A program made the position numbers and the translations under genes. From the NCBI GenBank assembly GCA_937124965.1, contig CAKZLB010000046.1, forward strand, positions 226,776 to 290,775: a stretch of DNA of 64,000 nucleotides, read 5' to 3'. Positions 5,170 to 17,715 of the stretch are shown in pieces. Under the pieces are notes generated by a model. That model ran no database searches. It saw only the letters and a list, made by a program, of their open reading frames with translations, and was not told the origin of the DNA. The stretch's first letter is position 1. Each line of letters starts with the position of its first letter. This stretch comes from an uncultured Bacteroidota bacterium (GTDB lineage: Bacteria; Bacteroidota; Bacteroidia; NS11-12g; UBA9320).

Positions 5170-8100
5170 TTATCTAATAATACTAATCTCGCCTTTTTTG
5201 TGGTGCTTCATTCCACGCAAATCAGTAATGGTCATTATATAGACATAAGAACCCATTTGCACTTTCTCCCCCATATAGGTTCCATCCCACTGCTTAAAGT
5301 CCTCAGATTCAAATATGCGTTCGCCCCATCGGTTAAATATTTGGATTATTATGTTTTCATATCCCAAACCAACCACTTTAAAAACATCGTTGTTGCCATC
5401 GCCATTTGGGCTAATAGCATTAGGTATAAATACCAATAACTCATCATTCACAATCAGTGTTTGCTGAGTTGTATCCAAACAGCCTTTGTCGTTTTCAACA
5501 ACCAAGGTTACTGGATATTCTCCACCTTCTGTGTATGCATGCTTCGGATTTTGATTTGTTGATGATTCAAAATCCCCAAAATTCCAATCCCACGCCACAA
5601 TGTTCAATACCGAGAGATCTTTAAATGTTACAAGCGGATTTGACAAATAAATATCGGTTGGAGAATAATTAAAACTTGCTGTAGGTTTGGGGAAAACATC
5701 TATCGACGTATCCTTTGTGATGTCACAGCCATTGGTTCCAAAAACTCTTAACTGTATTGGATACAAACCCTTGTCAAAGGTTTTACTGAAATTATATTGA
5801 TCATTTTCAAACTGACCTAATATATACCAACTTACGCTGTCTTCATTCCCAACTTTCTCAGTTGAAATAAACACAGGAAGTGGTTCACAACCTTCATGAG
5901 GATTTAACAGAATGGTATTTGTTGGTAACGATAAAACTTCAACCTCTATTGAATCTGACGCACTGCAATTTGAGGCGTTTGTAAGCGAGTACACAACCTT
6001 ATTTGTACCAATGACAGCATCCTCAGGCGTAAACAAACCTGCACTTGAGACATACTGACCACCGCTAAATAACCCTCCCATTGAATTTGGTATTATTTGG
6101 ACTGGATTATCATTTAAGCAAAGTGGGTTGATTGGGGTAATAGTTGCATCTGGGTTGTCATTTACAATAACTTGAATTGAATCCGTTGATAAGCATGTAT
6201 TACCATCTGTAAAGGAATAATAAATTCTATGATTTCCTGACGTTGCTATGCCTGGTTCAAAAAGACCAGTAGCTGATGTCCCATTACCACTAAAAGCACC
6301 TCCACTATTGGTTTGTGCAACTAATTGCTGTGGCAAATCATTTACACAAAATGGTCCAGCTGCTACTATTGACGCATCAGGTATCGTGTCTACAGTAATT
6401 TGCAATGAATCTTTGTTCGAACATCCATTGCCATCCAACACAGAATATAAAACCCAATGTTGACCACTCGCCGCAATTTTCGGATCAAAAGTACCAGTTG
6501 AGGTTAAATATGTTTCGACTCTAAATGATCCAATTGAGTTAAACAATGCTGAAATTGTTTGTATTCCCCCATTTTCACAAAATGGCCCAGCTGGAGCAAT
6601 TTGTGCGTTAGGAATTGAATCCACTTGAATTGTGGTTGAGTCTATATTCGAACACCCGTTACCATCTGTTGCGGTGTAGAAAATTTTATGGAGCCCGACA
6701 TCTGCAACCGTTGGATTAAAATTCCCTGACGTATCTAAATAACTTGTTGAGGAGAATCTTCCATCTCCAGCGACTACAGATTCTAACAACTGAATAGTGT
6801 CGTTTTTACAGAATGGTCCGGCTGGAATAATGGCTGCATTTGGGAAAGAATCAACCTTAATTATGGCAGAATCCATTGCCCAACATCCATTACCATCCGT
6901 TAGTTGATAATATATTTTGTGATCACCAGTACCTGCAATGATTGGCCGAAACACACCATTTGTATCAATAACCGTGGACGCAATAAACTTCCCTCCGATT
7001 AAATTCTCTGGTTGAATTACCTGATTTCCAGCATTAGGACAAAATGGTCCTGCTGGTTTAATAGCGGCATTTGGAATACTGTCAACAACCACCGTATTTG
7101 AATCAATATTCAAACATCCGTTTCCGTCTTCATTTTGATAATAAACCCAGTGAGTTCCTGCCTTAGCTATAGCTGGATCAAACAAACCATTAGAATCCAA
7201 ATAGGTCGTTTCAACAAACCTTCCACCAGCTACTACAGGAATTAACCGCATAGTATCAGCGTTTTCACATACCTTCATTGGGTTAATCGCAGCATTAGGA
7301 ATACTATCCACCCTTATCTCCAAAGAATCTAATCCACTACAACCAGCACCATCGTTTATTTCATAATAAATTCTGTGGCTACCGATTCCGGCAATTTGAG
7401 GATCAAAATTACCAGCAGTATCTATGTAAGTAGTAGCGACAAACTTTCCACCAACGATTTCTGGTTCAATCAGTTGAATCCCACCATTTTGACAAATTGC
7501 ACCCGGGTCTTTTATTGAAGCGTTTGGTAAAGAATCTACTCGTATAGAAGATGAATCAGTATTGCTACAACCATTCCCATCGGTGTAGGAATAATATATT
7601 TTATGATTACCTACGTCAGCAATCATTGGGTCAAATCTACCTGCAGAGTCAATATATGGCAATGGCCCGAATTCTCCACCTGCGCTTACAACAGCTGCCA
7701 AGGTTTTAACACCTGAATTAAAACAGAACGGACCTGCCTGAGCAATACGTGCATCTGGAATTGTATCAACTATTACAGTATTCGAATCAATATTCGAGCA
7801 ACCTTTACCATCCGTATAAGAATAGAACACTTTATGGTTTCCGTTTTTAGCAATTGTTGGGTTGAACAGGCCAGTCGTGTCAAGATATGCCGTTTGTATA
7901 AACTTCCCACCAACAACCTCAGTAGTTAAGCGAATCGTATCAGCATTTTCGCACACTTTTAATGCATTGATCGTTGCATTTGGTATGCTATCAACTATAA
8001 CTGAAATGGAATCTAGCCCAATACATCCTGCAGTGTTTGTTATTTCATAAAAAATCGTAAACGAACCAACACCTGCAATTTGCGGATCAAAATTTCCTGC

Positions 8101-11100
8101 AGTATCCAAATAACTGGCGGTAATAAACTTTCCTCCTGATAACTCTGGTTTAATTACTTGAACTCCTGCATTTTGACATATAGATCCTGGATCTATAATC
8201 GAAGCATTTGGCAATGAGTCGACAGTAACTATGGTTGTATCGGCATTACTACAACCATTTCCGTCGGTGTACGAGTAATATATTTTATGCGCACCAACAT
8301 CTGCAATCATTGGATCAAATCTCCCGGCAGAATCTATGTATGGTAATGGTCTAAATTTACCTCCTGTATTCACAGCTGCAAGAATAGTTTGTACTCCGGC
8401 ATTTAAGCAAAATGGTCCAGCCGGCTGAACGCTTGCATTTGGCAATGAATCGACAGTGACTATGGTCGTATCTGCAGATGTACACCCATTGTTATCGGTA
8501 AAAGTATACGTTATAATGTGGCTTCCAGCTTTCGCGATAAATGGATCAAATTTTCCTGATGAATCTATATATGCAGTTTTCCCAAACGTCCCGCCAGAAT
8601 TGGTCACTGGTCTAATTGTTTGAATACCAGCATTCTCGCAAAACGGTCCAGCAGACTGAATGCTCGCATCTGGTAACGTATCAACGGTTACAAATAGAGA
8701 ATCACTTGCGGAACACCCGTTAGCATTCTGAATTGTATATATCACCTTATGGTTACCTGGCGTGGCACTGTATGGATTAAAATATCCGTTTGAATCGATA
8801 TACGTTGTTGGAGTAAATGTACCACCGTTACTAACTGTGTTTATGCGCTGAACTGTGTCGTTGACACAAAAAGGTCCAGCAGGGTTTATAGCTGCATTTG
8901 GTAGGCTATCGACAGATATTACGATTGAATCTTTATTCGAGCATCCGTTTCCATCGGTAACTTTATACACAGCTTTGTGTTTTCCAGCTAACGCAATTTT
9001 TGGGTTAAATCGCCCATTAGTATCAAGATAACTAGTTTGAACAAACTTCCCAAACGTATTTACACTCCCTGTGATTATTTGAATTGAATCATTTTCGCAG
9101 TAAGGCCCAGAAGCTGAAATTGCGGCATTTGGCAGACTATCTACCCGAACAAAAACGGTATCTCGACCAATACATCCAGAACCATTTTCTCGTTCATAAA
9201 CTACCTCATGACTACCTATACCTGAATAGGCAGGATTAAACCATCCGCTCGTGTCGTTATAAGCTGTTGCAACAAAACGACCACCACTGAACAATGCTGT
9301 AATTTTTATCGAATCATCGTTCAAGCATAAATCGCTAGGTTGAACTAGTGTAGCACTTGGTAAGCTGTCTACATAAATTACTGTAGATGCATAGGTTATA
9401 CACCCTTTACCATTTGTCTGAGTGAAATTAATACTGTGAGATCCTTGACCAGCAATGGAAGGATTAAAATTACCTGCAGAGTCAATATATGTTCCTCCCG
9501 AAAAATATCCACCCAAAAATGGACTCGCCGTTAGTTTGCTGACAGTATCATTCAAACAGTATGGTGAAGTGGTGTTAATCGTTACTGGTGTTGTCGTGTC
9601 AACTTGAATAACTGCACTGTCAACTGCAACACAACCATTGCCATCGGTAAAGGTATAATACACTTTATGACTTCCTTTTTGCGCAACAAATGGATTAAAT
9701 ACACCTGCCGTGTCGATATAAGCCCCCCCTGAAAAGGAACCACCTGAATTGATGAGTCCTATCAGTGTATCTTTTGCACTATTCACACAATATGGCTGAT
9801 TAGAGCTAATAGATACAGAAGGGATTGAATCAACTGTGATGTATGTTGAATCAGTATTCGAACACCCATTGCCATCTGTAATGGCATATTGAGCCAAATG
9901 AGTTCCAGTATTCGCTATACTTGGGTTAAAGTTACCCAAACTATCGAGATATGCTGTTTTAATAAAAGTGCCCGAAGTACTGCCGATAGGTTGAAGTACC
10001 TGAACTCCAGAATTCTCACAAAAAGGACCAGCCGGTCGAATTGATGCATCTGGAGTCGAATCGACCACAACAATAATCGAATCTGTATTACTACAGCCAC
10101 TGCCGTTAGTCGTTGTATAATACACCGTGTGACTGCCAGCTAGCGCAATGCTGGGATCGAACTTTCCAGTTGAGTCTATATATGCACCTTGAGTAAATAA
10201 TCCTGATGTTGCAGAGACGGGATATAATTGGAAAATTGTGTCATTTTCGCAGAACGGTCCTGCAGGTATTATACTTGCACTTGGTATTGTGTCAACTACG
10301 ATATCAATAGAGTCAATAGCTTCACAATCGGTAGAATACGTTTTATAATACACTCTATTTACGGATTGATTGGTCAACGACGGTGTAAATAAACCGCTCG
10401 AATCAACATAAATTCCGCCGAAGTAGTATCCATCTGTATGATTCACAACGAGTTGAACTGACGAATCGTTCTTACACAATGTGTCAACAGGGTTAAACAC
10501 GAGTGTTGGAATCGAATCAACTATAAAAAAGCCAGTATCCAACGCCAAGCAGCCGTTGGTATCTATTACCGAGAAGTATACTGAATTGCTACCAAAAGAT
10601 GCTGAATCAACAACTACTAAACCTGTACTATCAACTGCATTGTTTCCATAAAAATAGCCATTAGTATCTGGTTTTGTTAATGTAAAAGAATCAAGCAATG
10701 AACAAATGTTTTCATCTGAAGTAAACAAGCTATCAATTTTCGGAAATTGAGTTACTTCAATACTATCGGTGTTGCTCTCACAACCAAAACCATCCACAAC
10801 AGAAACAACTAATTTTTGTATTGGACTTAAATACTTAACTGAATCAGAGGATGCATCGGACCATGTGTAATTATATTGCCTTTCAGACTGAGGAGTAATA
10901 ACAACTAGTTCACTATTGTTTTTAGATAGTTGGAAATTCTTTAGTCGATACGCATTGTTGTAATAACTTCTTGCCCCAACGCCAAACTTGAACCCAGTTT
11001 GTGTTCGAGTGATTCCGTCTGTATAGCTTAAGTAAAGCACCCCATCTATGTAAATTTCAACATATTGATTTCTATAATAAATCTTCACATTGTGCCAACC

Positions 11101-14100
11101 ACCGTTATCCAAGTCTATCCCTGTATTGTGGGTGTTTAATCTAGCATTATTCCATTCAAATTGAAGTTGGTTATTTCCATCAAACGCAAACGAATATCCT
11201 CCACCAGAGAAATCCTCATTTGTAGGGGTCGTGGTATTAAACAAATAGAACCATAACGCATAGTAGTTCTTTCCAGAACTAAAGTAATCAAAGGTTACCG
11301 TAAAACTATCGGTCAAACTCAAGGTTGAGTCCTCCCATTCTATTTGACCATTTCCACTAAATATATCTTCAGAAGTTAATTGAACATACCCATCGCTTGC
11401 ACTGTGTGTCGCATTGTTTTTCACAGATCCTGTTATTGAGGAATTCATCGAATCTTTAACTAAATACGGACTAAAGTATGTAACCGTAGGACGGATTGCA
11501 ATTGAATCATTGGCGCAGATTGTCGTATCTGAAGGCAAGCTGACCACTGGGTACGGGTTGACTTGAACATAAACACTATCAACGTATGGGCACGCCGAAC
11601 GCATCTTAACTTTTAAGAAATCAAAAAATGTGTAACTCGTGGTAGTACTTGTATTGACTTTATTTGATTGTAAAATAACTCTAAGCTTCCTTGATGTTTT
11701 TGGGGTCGTTCTAGAATGCTCAAGATATTGCCAATCATTATTGTAGTTTTTCAACCCAGACTGATAAATGGCTAACAAATTATTATTTGCATCTAGATAC
11801 TGCAGTATAATCTGACCTTCGTCTTCATACGACGAATGCCCTTTTATAAATCCAGTAATTGAAGTTTTTGCAATCCCGGAATCTATTTCTACCGAGTCTG
11901 AAGAAATATCAATATCTTGGTATGCTTCCAATACACCCGTTGATGCGGCAGCCGAATGACTTGCATAACCAACATAACTTGAGTCTCTTGGACTGTAACT
12001 GCTCGTCCTATTCCAATTTCCCGAATTAATTGTCCAACCATAACTTGCCATGTCTTTTTCTAAACTAGCGTTCTCCAACAAATGAGGTTTATCCTGCATT
12101 TTGTAGAAATACGTACCTGTAGAATTTACCGTTATTGAGTTCGAAGAATCTCCTGTACTCCAAACTCCATCACCGTGCGACAACACAGCTGTTAACGTAA
12201 CACTATCGCCCAAGCATAAATTTGTATCGTTTTGAAGGATGTCTAAATTCGGTGCAAAAGGCACGTCAATTACAATCTCAATGGAATCTTTACTTCGGTA
12301 CTCAATTTGCTCAACGACAAGTTTTACAGTATATGACTTTTCTTCACTAGATGGTGGGTATATTACTACTGGGTTAAGCGCAGTATCCGTAAGCCCATTG
12401 TACCCAAAATCCCAGAAATAGCGGATCGAGTCCCCGCGAGAGGATGTATTCACAAATTCAATTACATTTTCAGGGCAACCTGTGTTGTAGTAAAAAGCCG
12501 CATTCGGTTGGAATATATCGACAGGATTACACGTTGTATCGGTGTTAACCTTAGCTTCGGCAGACATTTCCAGTTCACCTTTGGCACCGTCAGGGGTAAC
12601 GATTTGAACATAATAGGTTCCTTTTCGAATACAATCGAGAGTGAACGTGGTAAGTGCATTGTTGTTGCACGGACCTGAAGTCAAACTTTTACAATTCCCA
12701 TAGTATGTTCTGTATCGTATTTCGCTGGCAGTTGCATCTGTGTATTCACCAAGTTTAAACTCCAAATCTACTTTTGTTGTATCCGTATAATCAACAACAA
12801 ACCAACTTGATTTATAATCTTTAGGTCCATATAAACAACCCATATCACTACCATCCTCGCCAAAGTCCGTTCCAATTGTATGACAATCAACGAGCAATCG
12901 ATCCTTCACTAATCCTAACGAATCCAATCTTAATGGAACGGCAGTTTCACAAAAGTCTCCAGTATGAAAGTCAAAAACAAGTTGTGGGATTACATAATCA
13001 CTGCAAGCATGTTGATCACATTTATTTATTTGAATATAATAAGTCCCTGGGTTTACGCAGATGTAATATGCTGTTCCATTACTCATCAAAGACCTGTATT
13101 TATTTGAAGAACTGATTGGCGGAATTCGGGTAAGTCCACTAAGTGAGTCACCAACTGCCGTTGACCGATATACTCTAATTCGATTATTATCGTAACTCGT
13201 TCTGGTTAGTGTATTGGTGCCTGATAAATAGCTGTACAAGTAGTTATAATGTAGGAATCCCGTTGAGTCAACATCAAACTTGTACCACACCGTTCCAGCC
13301 GTTGCTGAATTTCCACAGTTGCTGTAATATGTTCGATTATAATCGGTTGAGTCTAATGTTGATCCTGCGAAATAGGTCAAATCTCCTTGATACAAACGTT
13401 GACCAGCAAGTGGTGCTGGATTATTCTTGTTTGGCGTTGAAATCCGCAAATCAAAATCGTCAAAATAGACATCGTTGTAATTGTTCGACGACTTATATAG
13501 TGCTTCTAACTGTACTCGAATTTTAACCGTTCCTGTCGGAATCGTACGGCTATCAGAAACTGATTGCCATCCACCTATGGACTTTACCCATGAACTTGTA
13601 AATTGTGAAATCACACCACCAGACGAGTTTATATATTGAAGTTTTATTCTTCCTTCGTCTGGGTTTGTTTCGTTTTTGGACTGAATGTAACCTGAAAGGC
13701 TGGATGTTGCAGATCCTGCGGCAATAAAACTTGCATACGCCGACACGTCAACGTCCTGATAAATTATCCCTGTATCTCCCTTAGATTGATACGGTTTGTA
13801 ATACGCCCAAACGTGCCCTCCGCTAACTGGCGTAACATCACTTCTATTATACGTCCAACTCCCACTTGTACTAGTCCAACCAGTTGTGGCGTCAAACCCA
13901 CCATTAACCAAGAGGTTTGCATCATTCAACCCATTAATGTCATTCGCTGTTGAGTAATAGTCAAACTCTGTGTCTGGAATATATAGACTATCGTATTTTA
14001 TCTCTAACCAAATATTATGGTTTAAGTTGGGAGATTGACGTTGGTTGTAATAATTCGTTGTTTCTACTAAAACATAATAGCGTCGCGGTTTTACTTTTTC

Positions 14101-17100
14101 ACACGATGAGATGGCAAACGTGGCAGACAAGTCAGACGTATAGTAGCAATACGTATAGTCACGGTCAACATAAGTTAATCCATCATTTTTAGTTGAGTCA
14201 ATTTTGCCGGAAGATTTTAAAGATGCTAAACTTAAACTTCCGTCTTCGTCAGATTCATAAATTGCAAAACGCACAGATTGGTTTAAGCCATTGATGAGAT
14301 TTGACGTGTTCCCTTTTAAATCAACCGTTACGTTACCACGACCTTCAACCACAAAGCTGTACCACAAGTTCCGTCTTACAGGACTACCCCAAGGATAATA
14401 CGTTGTGTTATCGCTGTATCGATAACTGCTTGAGTCATAAAGAAAATAACCTGCATTTGTATCCTTTGAGTAGACATATGGACTCACATGACCGTAACAT
14501 CCTACTTCGGTTGGGTCGGTTCGTTGTGCGCCGGTTCTGCATGTAATCATGTCATGACTGGCAGGTAAACTTGTGTCTTTAGGATGAAAGTCACCTATTT
14601 TACCATCATAAAACGAGCTATTACCAGGTATTTTTCCAAAATCGTACGCATTAGAAGCATGATCAAATCTCGAGTCTGCCACGCTATCCATATGTAAAAC
14701 CGGCTGCACGGTAGCTCGTGTTCCAGCGGTTCTTTTACAATAATATACCACTGAATAGGTGCCAGCTAGTAAATTACAAAAAGCTATATAGTTTGCATCA
14801 TAATTACAGTCTTGTATTGGTGTTGCGGTAGCTAGCTTAGCTGAATCCTTTCGTACGTCAAAGTCGTACAACTTAACATCCCATGTCCCGCCAGACTTAT
14901 TGGCATAAATGCGCACATATGCATCTTTAGCAGTTGTGAAAGTATAATAAACAATATCAGTTGTGTTGGTATCGCAAAGTGTTGACTTCGGATGATGATT
15001 CAATGGCGTATCCAAATCACATTCTAAAATTTCTTTTGGGAATGTGTACTTTGCTAAATTTAAGTACATTCCACTAATCGCACTGTAGTTCGTATCGTAG
15101 CTTAATGACTTGTTGCCATTTACTAAACTATCAATAAAAGCCGCTTTTGAGGGACGGTAAAATTTAGGTGGAGTAATTGAACTAGCTCGTGTCGTAATAG
15201 TAATATTATGCGGATACTGAAAAAGTCCAGTACTATTACCTGATTGATACCTATTTGCCGAATCATAGTCTATGTCCCAATCGTTGCTTACCACGACGGT
15301 ATACCAGCCCGCTTCTAAAGGCTTACAATCAGAAGTTGTTCTGTAATATCCTGTACATGACCAATCTAAACCGTCGTCATACAGTTTTAACCCCGACTTA
15401 CCGTTTCGTATGTCTCCAGAAAACAATGAAAACCTAGCGCCTCCATAATGGTAAGGATAGTACCCAACATTGATTGTCGTAACAGCAGTACTGTCTAAGT
15501 AAAACACACGGTAAGCATTTCGCTTCCCACAATACTGACCATCTATGGTGTCTGGATTTACATTGCAATTAAAGGTATCTACTTCTCCTGTGTACGTACC
15601 ATACGAAGTTATGGAGTCAATAAATTGTGCCTTCGAATAGGTGTTAAATTTACGTTTGGCACTATAAAACTGAAACCTTGGTGTTTCTGTCCTAGATATT
15701 CCAATACTATCAAAATATGAGACTAGCGTATATGTTCCCGGTTCAAGACAACCTGAAGCTGCTGATGTAGATTGAGCAAAACAGTCTGAATGTGCTGTCA
15801 GACCAGTCAAAGTATCTGGATATCCGCTAACAGATTGTGTTGAACGCAATGCTAAAGCGTCTCCTTTATAAATTCTATGCCAAGCGTTGTAATCATAGTA
15901 AGGATAGCCACGATACACCGTTTGCCAACTACTCATATACAACATTCCACTATCCGCTAAACCATCATTATCCGCATCACCAATGACAAAGGTTCGGTAC
16001 ATTGCCTTTTTATATGCTGAATCACAAATTTCTAGCGGACGCACAGCATCATTACACGAAATAGTATCAATTTGCCCGTTAACGGTAGTGTACTTAGGCA
16101 AATCATTTAAACTGTAAATGGAATCTCCTTCTCCAACATTGGTTAAGGCAAATCGATTTGCCACTGGTAAACGACTTTGATTTAGGTTGAACTTGTAGTC
16201 TCCTCCAAGATGCATGCTTCCAGAGCATGGCCAGTTTGAGTAATCTCGTACTGTGTCTGTTCCTAATAGCTGTATAGTATACTTACCTGGCTCCAAGCAA
16301 TCAACTGTGTATGTTCCATTTCCTGTTGCTTTGATTAATACATTGTTTGTGTCTATTCCTGTGCAACTTGACGTAACTGTGTCCTTAAATAAGCGAAACG
16401 CTAGCTGTTGATATCGTTTGTAATTGCCGTTGCTACCATAGGTCGCTTGCACGGATAATTTTGACTGTTGATCTAGGGTAAACTCATACCATTGAGCCAT
16501 GTTGTAATCATACCCCCCGATTGCGATTGACGTTGAATTAGCATTCCCACATGTATTCTGAGTGATGTAAGAACCACAGGAAAAACCCGTATTAAATGAG
16601 TTGTTACCACGAATAATTCCAAGGTCTTTAGCATAACTAGAGTTAGGTTGATATCTGCCAGAATCATACTGTGATGTTTGATCTGAAATTCGAAACCGCA
16701 TGGTTTTAATTAAATCCTTGTGATACAGAAGCTGAACGGAATATGTTTCACCAGAATCAAACAAACATTTGTAGTCTCTTACAATTTCACTGCAATTAGT
16801 GTAACACGTATTTGCGGCTCTCCAGTCGCTATACATTGAGTCTAACAGTTGTAAACTTCCTCCACCTCGAGAATCCCCTTTAAACAATCGAAACGCCACT
16901 GTATCCGTGGTAGAGCAACCACTTTTATGACTCAGTTTTAGTTGTGTGTTGTCATGATCTCGATTTGCCTTAAAAACAAACCATGCGCTTTGATTGTACG
17001 CTAAATAGTTTGAACCAAGATCTTTAAAAAATTCTGTGGAATCACTTATCGTATAACACCCCATCTCGTAGTCGACATAGGCAGACTGCGACCCATATTT

Positions 17101-17715
17101 TCCAACTATTTGGTCTCCAAAATCATAAGCGCTGTCTTGATCATCGTATTCCGCATTAACTACCGCAGGGTATTGATGAGGGTATATGGTGGTAATCTCC
17201 AAATAGACTTTTCCCATGGCGCGAGCCTTGGAACTTACCTGAACTAAATACCAACCTGGATCCATACATGGGTGAAATGAACTTCCAAATTGATTTAAGG
17301 TCGTCAGTTTTGCATTTGTTGCCGCTGTAGATGCGGGAAGACATTGATCTGTTAAGTATGTGGTGAATCCAACATCCTTCGTTGCAATGGCGTTGGCATT
17401 CTGCTTTAATTCTATATTAACCCCGCGACGCGCCGGAATATAAAATTTAAACCAAATGGTTTTTTTATCATTTCCAGAGGAGACTAAAGACGAGTGAAAA
17501 TATTCTCCAACTTGAAGAGTTGCACTATCTATGTTTATTGAATCACTTTGGAACGTCCCTATGGAAAACCCTCCGGTACCTAACCCAATTTCTATGGCAT
17601 TCTGGCAACTGTCGTTTTGTGGAAGCTGAGCGAAAACATCGCCTGCTAAAAAAATGCTACTGCTAAAAAGTAAAACTCTATAAAGGTATTTTAAATAGTA
17701 CTTCAAACGACACAA
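5170..17715 (-). CDS. giant secreted repeat protein (4181 aa) with T9SS type B (CHU_C) sorting domain
   Basis: Very large surface protein, likely adhesive. Order of parts: a signal peptide (about 1-29, ending GDVFA); nine related modules of 130-220 residues (about 30-1720), each with a [W/Y]xxF-type strand, paired cysteines and a late [P/A]GxYx[V/I/L] strand; a carbohydrate-binding-like insert (about 1265-1425, starting LLVNGGFDATTGW); PKD (about 1730-1870); a second carbohydrate-binding-like insert (about 1875-2040); a LamG/L-type-lectin-like domain (about 2090-2260); about 21 tandem 75-78-residue repeats (about 2325-3932); two PKD domains; and a gliding-motility-type C-terminal domain (about 4093-4181, FIPNAISPNGDGNNDVFKV, then FNRWGERIFES). 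There is no ATG near the signal peptide. The start is TTG at 17715 or, equally possible, TTG at 17706 (MKYYLKYLYR). No enzyme motif is seen. Confidence 0.9.
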   Translation of the reverse strand: MCRLKYYLKYLYRVLLFSSSIFLAGDVFAQLPQNDSCQNAIEIGLGTGGFSIGTFQSDSINIDSATLQVGEYFHSSLVSSGNDKKTIWFKFYIPARRGVNIELKQNANAIATKDVGFTTYLTDQCLPASTAATNAKLTTLNQFGSSFHPCMDPGWYLVQVSSKARAMGKVYLEITTIYPHQYPAVVNAEYDDQDSAYDFGDQIVGKYGSQSAYVDYEMGCYTISDSTEFFKDLGSNYLAYNQSAWFVFKANRDHDNTQLKLSHKSGCSTTDTVAFRLFKGDSRGGGSLQLLDSMYSDWRAANTCYTNCSEIVRDYKCLFDSGETYSVQLLYHKDLIKTMRFRISDQTSQYDSGRYQPNSSYAKDLGIIRGNNSFNTGFSCGSYITQNTCGNANSTSIAIGGYDYNMAQWYEFTLDQQSKLSVQATYGSNGNYKRYQQLAFRLFKDTVTSSCTGIDTNNVLIKATGNGTYTVDCLEPGKYTIQLLGTDTVRDYSNWPCSGSMHLGGDYKFNLNQSRLPVANRFALTNVGEGDSIYSLNDLPKYTTVNGQIDTISCNDAVRPLEICDSAYKKAMYRTFVIGDADNDGLADSGMLYMSSWQTVYRGYPYYDYNAWHRIYKGDALALRSTQSVSGYPDTLTGLTAHSDCFAQSTSAASGCLEPGTYTLVSYFDSIGISRTETPRFQFYSAKRKFNTYSKAQFIDSITSYGTYTGEVDTFNCNVNPDTIDGQYCGKRNAYRVFYLDSTAVTTINVGYYPYHYGGARFSLFSGDIRNGKSGLKLYDDGLDWSCTGYYRTTSDCKPLEAGWYTVVVSNDWDIDYDSANRYQSGNSTGLFQYPHNITITTRASSITPPKFYRPSKAAFIDSLVNGNKSLSYDTNYSAISGMYLNLAKYTFPKEILECDLDTPLNHHPKSTLCDTNTTDIVYYTFTTAKDAYVRIYANKSGGTWDVKLYDFDVRKDSAKLATATPIQDCNYDANYIAFCNLLAGTYSVVYYCKRTAGTRATVQPVLHMDSVADSRFDHASNAYDFGKIPGNSSFYDGKIGDFHPKDTSLPASHDMITCRTGAQRTDPTEVGCYGHVSPYVYSKDTNAGYFLYDSSSYRYSDNTTYYPWGSPVRRNLWYSFVVEGRGNVTVDLKGNTSNLINGLNQSVRFAIYESDEDGSLSLASLKSSGKIDSTKNDGLTYVDRDYTYCYYTSDLSATFAISSCEKVKPRRYYVLVETTNYYNQRQSPNLNHNIWLEIKYDSLYIPDTEFDYYSTANDINGLNDANLLVNGGFDATTGWTSTSGSWTYNRSDVTPVSGGHVWAYYKPYQSKGDTGIIYQDVDVSAYASFIAAGSATSSLSGYIQSKNETNPDEGRIKLQYINSSGGVISQFTSSWVKSIGGWQSVSDSRTIPTGTVKIRVQLEALYKSSNNYNDVYFDDFDLRISTPNKNNPAPLAGQRLYQGDLTYFAGSTLDSTDYNRTYYSNCGNSATAGTVWYKFDVDSTGFLHYNYLYSYLSGTNTLTRTSYDNNRIRVYRSTAVGDSLSGLTRIPPISSSNKYRSLMSNGTAYYICVNPGTYYIQINKCDQHACSDYVIPQLVFDFHTGDFCETAVPLRLDSLGLVKDRLLVDCHTIGTDFGEDGSDMGCLYGPKDYKSSWFVVDYTDTTKVDLEFKLGEYTDATASEIRYRTYYGNCKSLTSGPCNNNALTTFTLDCIRKGTYYVQIVTPDGAKGELEMSAEAKVNTDTTCNPVDIFQPNAAFYYNTGCPENVIEFVNTSSRGDSIRYFWDFGYNGLTDTALNPVVIYPPSSEEKSYTVKLVVEQIEYRSKDSIEIVIDVPFAPNLDILQNDTNLCLGDSVTLTAVLSHGDGVWSTGDSSNSITVNSTGTYFYKMQDKPHLLENASLEKDMASYGWTINSGNWNRTSSYSPRDSSYVGYASHSAAASTGVLEAYQDIDISSDSVEIDSGIAKTSITGFIKGHSSYEDEGQIILQYLDANNNLLAIYQSGLKNYNNDWQYLEHSRTTPKTSRKLRVILQSNKVNTSTTTSYTFFDFLKVKMRSACPYVDSVYVQVNPYPVVSLPSDTTICANDSIAIRPTVTYFSPYLVKDSMNSSITGSVKNNATHSASDGYVQLTSEDIFSGNGQIEWEDSTLSLTDSFTVTFDYFSSGKNYYALWFYLFNTTTPTNEDFSGGGYSFAFDGNNQLQFEWNNARLNTHNTGIDLDNGGWHNVKIYYRNQYVEIYIDGVLYLSYTDGITRTQTGFKFGVGARSYYNNAYRLKNFQLSKNNSELVVITPQSERQYNYTWSDASSDSVKYLSPIQKLVVSVVDGFGCESNTDSIEVTQFPKIDSLFTSDENICSLLDSFTLTKPDTNGYFYGNNAVDSTGLVVVDSASFGSNSVYFSVIDTNGCLALDTGFFIVDSIPTLVFNPVDTLCKNDSSVQLVVNHTDGYYFGGIYVDSSGLFTPSLTNQSVNRVYYKTYSTDCEAIDSIDIVVDTIPSASIIPAGPFCENDTIFQLYPVSATSGLFTQGAYIDSTGKFDPSIALAGSHTVYYTTTNGSGCSNTDSIIVVVDSTPDASIRPAGPFCENSGVQVLQPIGSTSGTFIKTAYLDSLGNFNPSIANTGTHLAQYAITDGNGCSNTDSTYITVDSIPSVSISSNQPYCVNSAKDTLIGLINSGGSFSGGAYIDTAGVFNPFVAQKGSHKVYYTFTDGNGCVAVDSAVIQVDTTTPVTINTTSPYCLNDTVSKLTASPFLGGYFSGGTYIDSAGNFNPSIAGQGSHSINFTQTNGKGCITYASTVIYVDSLPSATLVQPSDLCLNDDSIKITALFSGGRFVATAYNDTSGWFNPAYSGIGSHEVVYERENGSGCIGRDTVFVRVDSLPNAAISASGPYCENDSIQIITGSVNTFGKFVQTSYLDTNGRFNPKIALAGKHKAVYKVTDGNGCSNKDSIVISVDSLPNAAINPAGPFCVNDTVQRINTVSNGGTFTPTTYIDSNGYFNPYSATPGNHKVIYTIQNANGCSASDSLFVTVDTLPDASIQSAGPFCENAGIQTIRPVTNSGGTFGKTAYIDSSGKFDPFIAKAGSHIITYTFTDNNGCTSADTTIVTVDSLPNASVQPAGPFCLNAGVQTILAAVNTGGKFRPLPYIDSAGRFDPMIADVGAHKIYYSYTDGNGCSNADTTIVTVDSLPNASIIDPGSICQNAGVQVIKPELSGGKFITASYLDTAGNFDPQIAGVGSFTIFYEITNTAGCIGLDSISVIVDSIPNATINALKVCENADTIRLTTEVVGGKFIQTAYLDTTGLFNPTIAKNGNHKVFYSYTDGKGCSNIDSNTVIVDTIPDARIAQAGPFCFNSGVKTLAAVVSAGGEFGPLPYIDSAGRFDPMIADVGNHKIYYSYTDGNGCSNTDSSSIRVDSLPNASIKDPGAICQNGGIQLIEPEIVGGKFVATTYIDTAGNFDPQIAGIGSHRIYYEINDGAGCSGLDSLEIRVDSIPNAAINPMKVCENADTMRLIPVVAGGRFVETTYLDSNGLFDPAIAKAGTHWVYYQNEDGNGCLNIDSNTVVVDSIPNAAIKPAGPFCPNAGNQVIQPENLIGGKFIASTVIDTNGVFRPIIAGTGDHKIYYQLTDGNGCWAMDSAIIKVDSFPNAAIIPAGPFCKNDTIQLLESVVAGDGRFSSTSYLDTSGNFNPTVADVGLHKIFYTATDGNGCSNIDSTTIQVDSIPNAQIAPAGPFCENGGIQTISALFNSIGSFRVETYLTSTGTFDPKIAASGQHWVLYSVLDGNGCSNKDSLQITVDTIPDASIVAAGPFCVNDLPQQLVAQTNSGGAFSGNGTSATGLFEPGIATSGNHRIYYSFTDGNTCLSTDSIQVIVNDNPDATITPINPLCLNDNPVQIIPNSMGGLFSGGQYVSSAGLFTPEDAVIGTNKVVYSLTNASNCSASDSIEVEVLSLPTNTILLNPHEGCEPLPVFISTEKVGNEDSVSWYILGQFENDQYNFSKTFDKGLYPIQLRVFGTNGCDITKDTSIDVFPKPTASFNYSPTDIYLSNPLVTFKDLSVLNIVAWDWNFGDFESSTNQNPKHAYTEGGEYPVTLVVENDKGCLDTTQQTLIVNDELLVFIPNAISPNGDGNNDVFKVVGLGYENIIIQIFNRWGERIFESEDFKQWDGTYMGEKVQMGSYVYIMTITDLRGMKHHKKGEISIIR
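7069..7752 (-). repeat. 684-bp higher-order repeat, second copy
   Basis: Three consecutive units of 77, 76 and 75 residues (228 codons) that match, class by class, the three units at 7753-8436. Diagnostic strings are LPYIDSAGRFDPMIADVG in unit one, ICQN with TAGNFDPQIAG in unit two, and KVCENADT with NIDSNTV in unit three. The unit classes alternate in the same order in both copies. Confidence 0.85.
7753..8436 (-). repeat. 684-bp higher-order repeat, first copy
   Basis: First copy (in the reading direction of the gene) of the three-unit block. It has the same length as 7069-7752 and the same succession of 77-, 76- and 75-residue units, which points to a duplication of 684 bp rather than independent single-unit growth. 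Confidence 0.85.

Follow-up and report, generated by a model that had tools for sequence, protein, structure and literature searches.

An old three-domain duplication probably underlies a repeated block in the array of a giant, putatively T9SS-secreted protein from an uncultured Bacteroidota bacterium

The window, that is, the whole stretch of 64,000 nucleotides from an uncultured Bacteroidota bacterium that was analysed, contains on its minus strand a giant open reading frame, in which an array of 21 Ig/PKD-like units lies upstream of a PKD domain and a C-terminal T9SS type B sorting domain. Units are numbered from the high-coordinate end of the array (u01) to its low end (u21), and the array of this reading frame is referred to as WIN. 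Two adjacent blocks of three units, u11-u12-u13 and u14-u15-u16, delimited by unit lengths, pair identities, a permutation test and excess pairs, are the subject of this report.

5170-17715, minus strand: giant open reading frame of a predicted secreted, surface-type protein that carries the array (4181 aa from a TTG start; 4193 codons open)
5188-5430, minus strand: C-terminal T9SS type B sorting domain (PF13585 CHU_C / TIGR04131; E=2e-19 and E=1.7e-13, above the curated cut-off)
5461-5628, minus strand: PKD domain between the sorting domain and the array (PF18911, E=6e-14)
5938-10737, minus strand: array of 21 Ig/PKD-like units of 72-77 aa (protein residues 2327-3926)
7087-7770, minus strand: second three-unit block, u14-u15-u16 (77/76/75 aa)
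7771-8454, minus strand: first three-unit block, u11-u12-u13 (77/76/75 aa)
7042-8421, minus strand: approximate full extent of both copies as judged from excess similarity (maximum-scoring segment, 232 aligned residues)
10966-11352, minus strand: Laminin_G_3 (concanavalin-like, LamG-like) domain upstream of the array (PF13385, E=1e-8)

Because of its sorting domain, the T9SS translocon protein SprA encoded by the host genome (TIGR04189, 2362 bits) and the approximately 31 type B sorting domains above cut-off in the same genome, the protein is predicted to be a secreted surface or extracellular T9SS type B cargo. Curated Pfam families do not seem to describe the array unit well, with three-unit stretches matching Cadherin_5 and Big_9 (bacterial Ig-like) weakly and one stretch barely above cut-off. 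The AlphaFold2 model of u14-16 (mean pLDDT 87, pTM 0.57) is all-beta, of the beta-sandwich type, save for one short helix per unit, and the structures that match it best are Ig-like domain arrays; as the pTM is low, the angles between units in the model are unreliable. On this structural basis, the 21-unit array would best be read as a rod.

The N-terminal 2300 residues of the protein (10738-17595 of the window) are better conserved between relatives than the array (about 75% versus 53% identity to the congeneric genome G001), and in other families of the same class part of this region occurs with no array attached. Among homologs from the wider class, the N-terminal region is shared and the array is absent, so these homologs are uninformative on periodicity.

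An earlier note on this DNA had described two adjacent blocks of exactly 228 codons, in which unit classes of 77, 76 and 75 residues recur in like order, and this arrangement was recovered in full: the lengths are found twice, in blocks of 684 nt each at 7069-7752 and 7753-8436, and all the class-specific strings that had been named are present. The domain boundaries are offset from these blocks by 18 nt, which gives 7087-7770 and 7771-8454. Pairwise comparison of the two blocks, which the note had proposed, yielded an identity of 67.5% in DNA and likewise 67.5% in protein. Similarity is class-dependent and not equal across unit pairs, as same-class units are 69% (u11/14), 67% (u12/15) and 65% (u13/16) identical in protein, versus 62% for the next best core pair u10/11 and 40-55% for most core pairs (background about 45%). 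Upon correction for unit-specific means, these lag-3 pairs rank first to third by excess similarity, and the best three-unit diagonal lies at lag 3 in protein and DNA alike (P=0.001, the lowest value attainable with 1000 shuffles of unit order). An alignment-free self-comparison of the protein gave 228 residues as the best offset after 77. Tandem Repeats Finder reported no repeat, as is expected for copies only about 67% alike. The lag-3 signal is restricted to u11-16, and since it represents a single local block, lag modulo 3 is not significant over the entire WIN array (P=0.20 for protein, 0.34 for DNA). The duplicated segment comprises about 232 residues; as the similarity begins within u11 and ends within u14, the breaks being about 12-15 residues into the unit, the break points appear to lie off the domain boundaries.

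The origin of the two blocks was assessed with one genome per species. The congeners of WIN, G001 and G002, possess a single matching segment, at positions 14-16, and the duplication is absent from both. As a unit-level tree could not resolve class A from so few columns, it was set aside and a tree was built from concatenated three-unit blocks, which places u11-13 and u14-16 as sisters (support 97/99) and rejects the grouping of u14-16 with the congener segments instead (p-AU 0.004). In line with this topology, 34 sites are common to both WIN copies versus both congeners, with 18 and 11 for the alternative groupings; with the A and B units alone, neither placement is significant (p-AU 0.13-0.15). 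As judged from this phylogeny, the two blocks demonstrably descend from one three-unit segment, which would have been duplicated after the split from G001 and G002.

WIN did not become longer than its congeners through the duplication, because the orthologs without it also have 21 units. The proposal of the earlier note that the protein lengthens in three-domain steps is not borne out for this gene, while for the family such steps are suggested by the lag-3 and lag-6 blocks found elsewhere. Besides WIN, G001 and G002, which belong to one genus, G009 of another genus has 21 units; the same-genome paralogs C16 and C74 have 18 and 16, the four genomes of genus g3 have 12 each, and G075 of another family has 24. 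Three full-length paralogs are present in one genome, namely L023 (18 units), L024 (16 units) and the window reading frame 5170-17715 (21 units). The array is interrupted by contig ends in L030/L031 (G051), L032/L033 (G015) and L034 (G003), and as contigs break inside the array, its lengths in draft genomes are probably underestimated.

The equal length of 21 units in WIN and its congeners calls for a matching loss of three units, a separate gain on the congener side, or gene conversion that overwrote existing units. Either three units would have been gained per lineage on an ancestor of 18 units, or an array of fixed length would have been overwritten by conversion. Gene conversion, whereby in an array of always about 21 positions u14-16 were copied in register over u11-13 with the length unchanged, is the rival explanation that survives best, although we consider it tentative and clearly less probable than tandem duplication. 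It would account for the 21 units in WIN, G001, G002 and G009 despite their differing internal blocks, and for positions 11-13, which carry the A-B-C copy in WIN, whereas those of G001/G002 resemble units 5-7 (lag 6, P=0.002-0.008). Moreover, in the paralog C16 (L023, G000:C16), unit 5 and unit 15 constitute a dispersed lag-10 copy of a single unit (82% identity), which is conversion-like in character and suggests that single units are copied to dispersed sites or undergo gene conversion. On the other hand, unit number does vary, with 12, 16, 18 and 24 units in other members of the family, and adjacent three-unit copies in the same order are the simplest outcome of a tandem duplication.

Three-unit periods are also found in relatives of WIN. 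In G009 (L025, G009:C6), units 8-16 comprise three rounds of a three-unit period of 693 bp (P=0.003-0.007), with a DNA identity of 82-93% and exact matches of 63-100 nt. This higher-order repeat is genuinely recent, and the G009 array is a better system than the window for the study of length change. In G075 (L036, G075:C56), units 3-21 of 24, that is, 19 closely similar units, display a clear period of 3 (P=0.0002-0.0006), and the mean DNA identity is 0.85-0.88 at lags 3, 6, 9, 12 and 15 versus 0.80-0.83 at other lags (P=0.0002). The same trend is seen in G051 from the genus of G075, where the array is split across contigs (P=0.02-0.05). No shared three-unit phase was detected among WIN, G009 and G075 (P=0.40, 0.63 and 0.21), which favours separate origins, so that three- or six-unit periods apparently arose in separate lineages.

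A three-class pattern inherited by all arrays of the family as an ancestral higher-order repeat, with no separate duplications, is improbable in the light of these data. Some phase agreement of WIN with its close kin G002 (P=0.006) and C16 (P=0.013) would be in accordance with such common inheritance, but the agreement goes undetected between WIN, G009 and G075, and an ancestral period should span the whole array, whereas the signal in WIN is confined to the two blocks.

Assuming independence and a chance of 1/3 each, the probability of a lag divisible by three in four lineages is 0.012, and that of unit counts divisible by three in 5/6 lineages is 0.018; both values were computed post hoc on few, incompletely independent lineages and are to be read as suggestive. 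The three-unit rule is not exclusive, as single-unit steps (lag-1 runs in G001/G002) and the lag-10 copy in C16 occur too, and the genomes of genus g3 gave no block signal. Three as a genome-wide habit was rejected, since other giant repeat proteins of the same genome have periods of 285, 169 and 165 residues. Likewise, the long repetitive reading frames of genus g10 were rejected as family members, as they carry different arrays, one with a 451-residue period. A reading frame of 4238 residues with PKD-like domains (L058, G018:C4) has a strong 451-residue period and a run of unknown bases inside its array.

Divergence between the two blocks of WIN bears on the age of the duplication. Codon positions 1, 2 and 3 are 76, 85 and 42% identical between blocks, whereby third positions range from 39 to 43% with about 32% expected by chance. 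At 68 of the 154 identical residues, both blocks have the same codon, with 65 expected from codon usage, and 22 of the 69 four-fold sites are identical. Synonymous sites between the blocks are saturated, and the use of the same codon at chance level together with the four-fold sites indicates that the duplication is old. As the longest exact DNA match between the blocks is 14 nt, current homologous slippage between them is unlikely. Third-position identity of u14 to its congener counterparts (0.40-0.45) is similar to the between-block value, and for this reason the duplication may be only slightly younger than the species split.

Consequently, of the recent block duplication put forward in the earlier note, the block duplication stands, given the sister placement of the two copies, while its recency is lost to synonymous saturation and the short longest match. 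That a recent duplication still drives length variation among strains could draw on the exactly kept order and lengths of the blocks and on the existence of relatives with 82-93% identical blocks, but it is contradicted by the DNA divergence within the gene and by congener orthologs at a similar third-position identity, and we regard it as very improbable. Equally remote is convergence, by which same-class units would have become alike with no block copying, through binding one and the same partner every three positions along a twisted rod, since, despite the three-unit periods in several lineages, the three adjacent units are similar jointly over an unbroken run of about 232 residues whose ends can be defined.

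The feature is thus most probably the product of an old tandem duplication, in which a three-domain segment was copied within the stalk of a giant fibrous protein that is Ig/PKD-like and T9SS-secreted. Recombination between staggered units would add and remove array segments, whereby the duplicated stretch would often be three units in length, and an established three-unit period could be maintained by further in-register exchange. The array may function as a rod that keeps the N-terminal modules off the cell, with the block as a spacer; in this genome, it would now be too diverged for ready length change via homologous slippage. A more speculative and rather doubtful extension is that the array family changes in multiples of three as three units make up one structural repeat, for example one full twist, in which case block changes that leave the faces in register along the fibre would be retained by selection. 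Arrays of 12, 18, 21 and 24 units and, in about four lineages, lags of 3 or 6 are consistent with multiples of three; the 16 units of the diverged paralog C74 are an exception.

Taken alone, the window presents an ordinary old duplication. Across the family, however, relatives of one gene carry block duplications of both old and recent date, and the family can be used to test whether a fixed three-domain step reflects recombination or fibre geometry. Domain arrays in giant secreted proteins are frequent in Bacteroidota, and to our knowledge the length change of such arrays has rarely been traced.

Among characterized surface proteins, SprB-type gliding adhesins were not adopted as the family of the protein, as PF13573, the family of the SprB repeats, was absent from the matches of the whole protein listed at E<=0.1 and from those of the units at E<=10, with filters that can drop weak matches. 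GhpA (Grappling hook protein A) of Aureispira sp. CCB-QB1 is likewise a giant Bacteroidota protein with arrays of Ig-like domains, and fragments of it provide the best match to the whole three-domain arrangement of the model, several at 4.1-4.5 A over 212-215 residues; their Z scores of 7.3-9.2 throughout are near the level of common arrangements and their identity is 13-19%. Membership in a GhpA family was not adopted, as a sequence match to GhpA was found neither with the unit profile at E<=10 nor with the full protein at E<=1, and the resemblance may serve as a lead on shape, not membership.

The protein shares with fibrillar adhesins (PMC9210967) the N-terminal modules on a long repetitive stalk; unlike those, it has a C-terminal T9SS type B sorting domain, and no characterized adhesive domain was identified. 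Periscope Proteins and WIN are alike as single-chain rods of the bacterial surface with tandem beta-sandwich domains and potentially variable length, but Periscope Proteins are defined by repeats highly identical at the DNA level (PMC8201768, PMC9704523), whereas the units of WIN are mostly 40-55% identical in amino acids and its duplicated block reaches 67.5% in DNA.

A literature search on bacterial surface proteins with Ig-like domains found nothing direct on higher-order repeats, and the closest parallels come from nebulin and titin. Joint duplication of several domains, often in mid-array and in numbers typical of the family, has been described (Bjorklund, Ekman and Elofsson, 2006, PMC1553488), with nebulin and its seven domains as an example. 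The seven-domain blocks of nebulin and the super-repeats of titin are likewise tandem domain arrays with joint multi-domain duplication, and its hallmarks, a similarity peak at a lag >1 over consecutive units and copies that derive from one block, are found here. Unlike the regular series in those proteins, this window holds one old duplication, in a bacterial, intron-free gene whose family displays an apparent preferred number of three in few lineages. WIN can therefore be viewed as a bacterial instance of the known multi-domain duplication, with an apparent preference for three.
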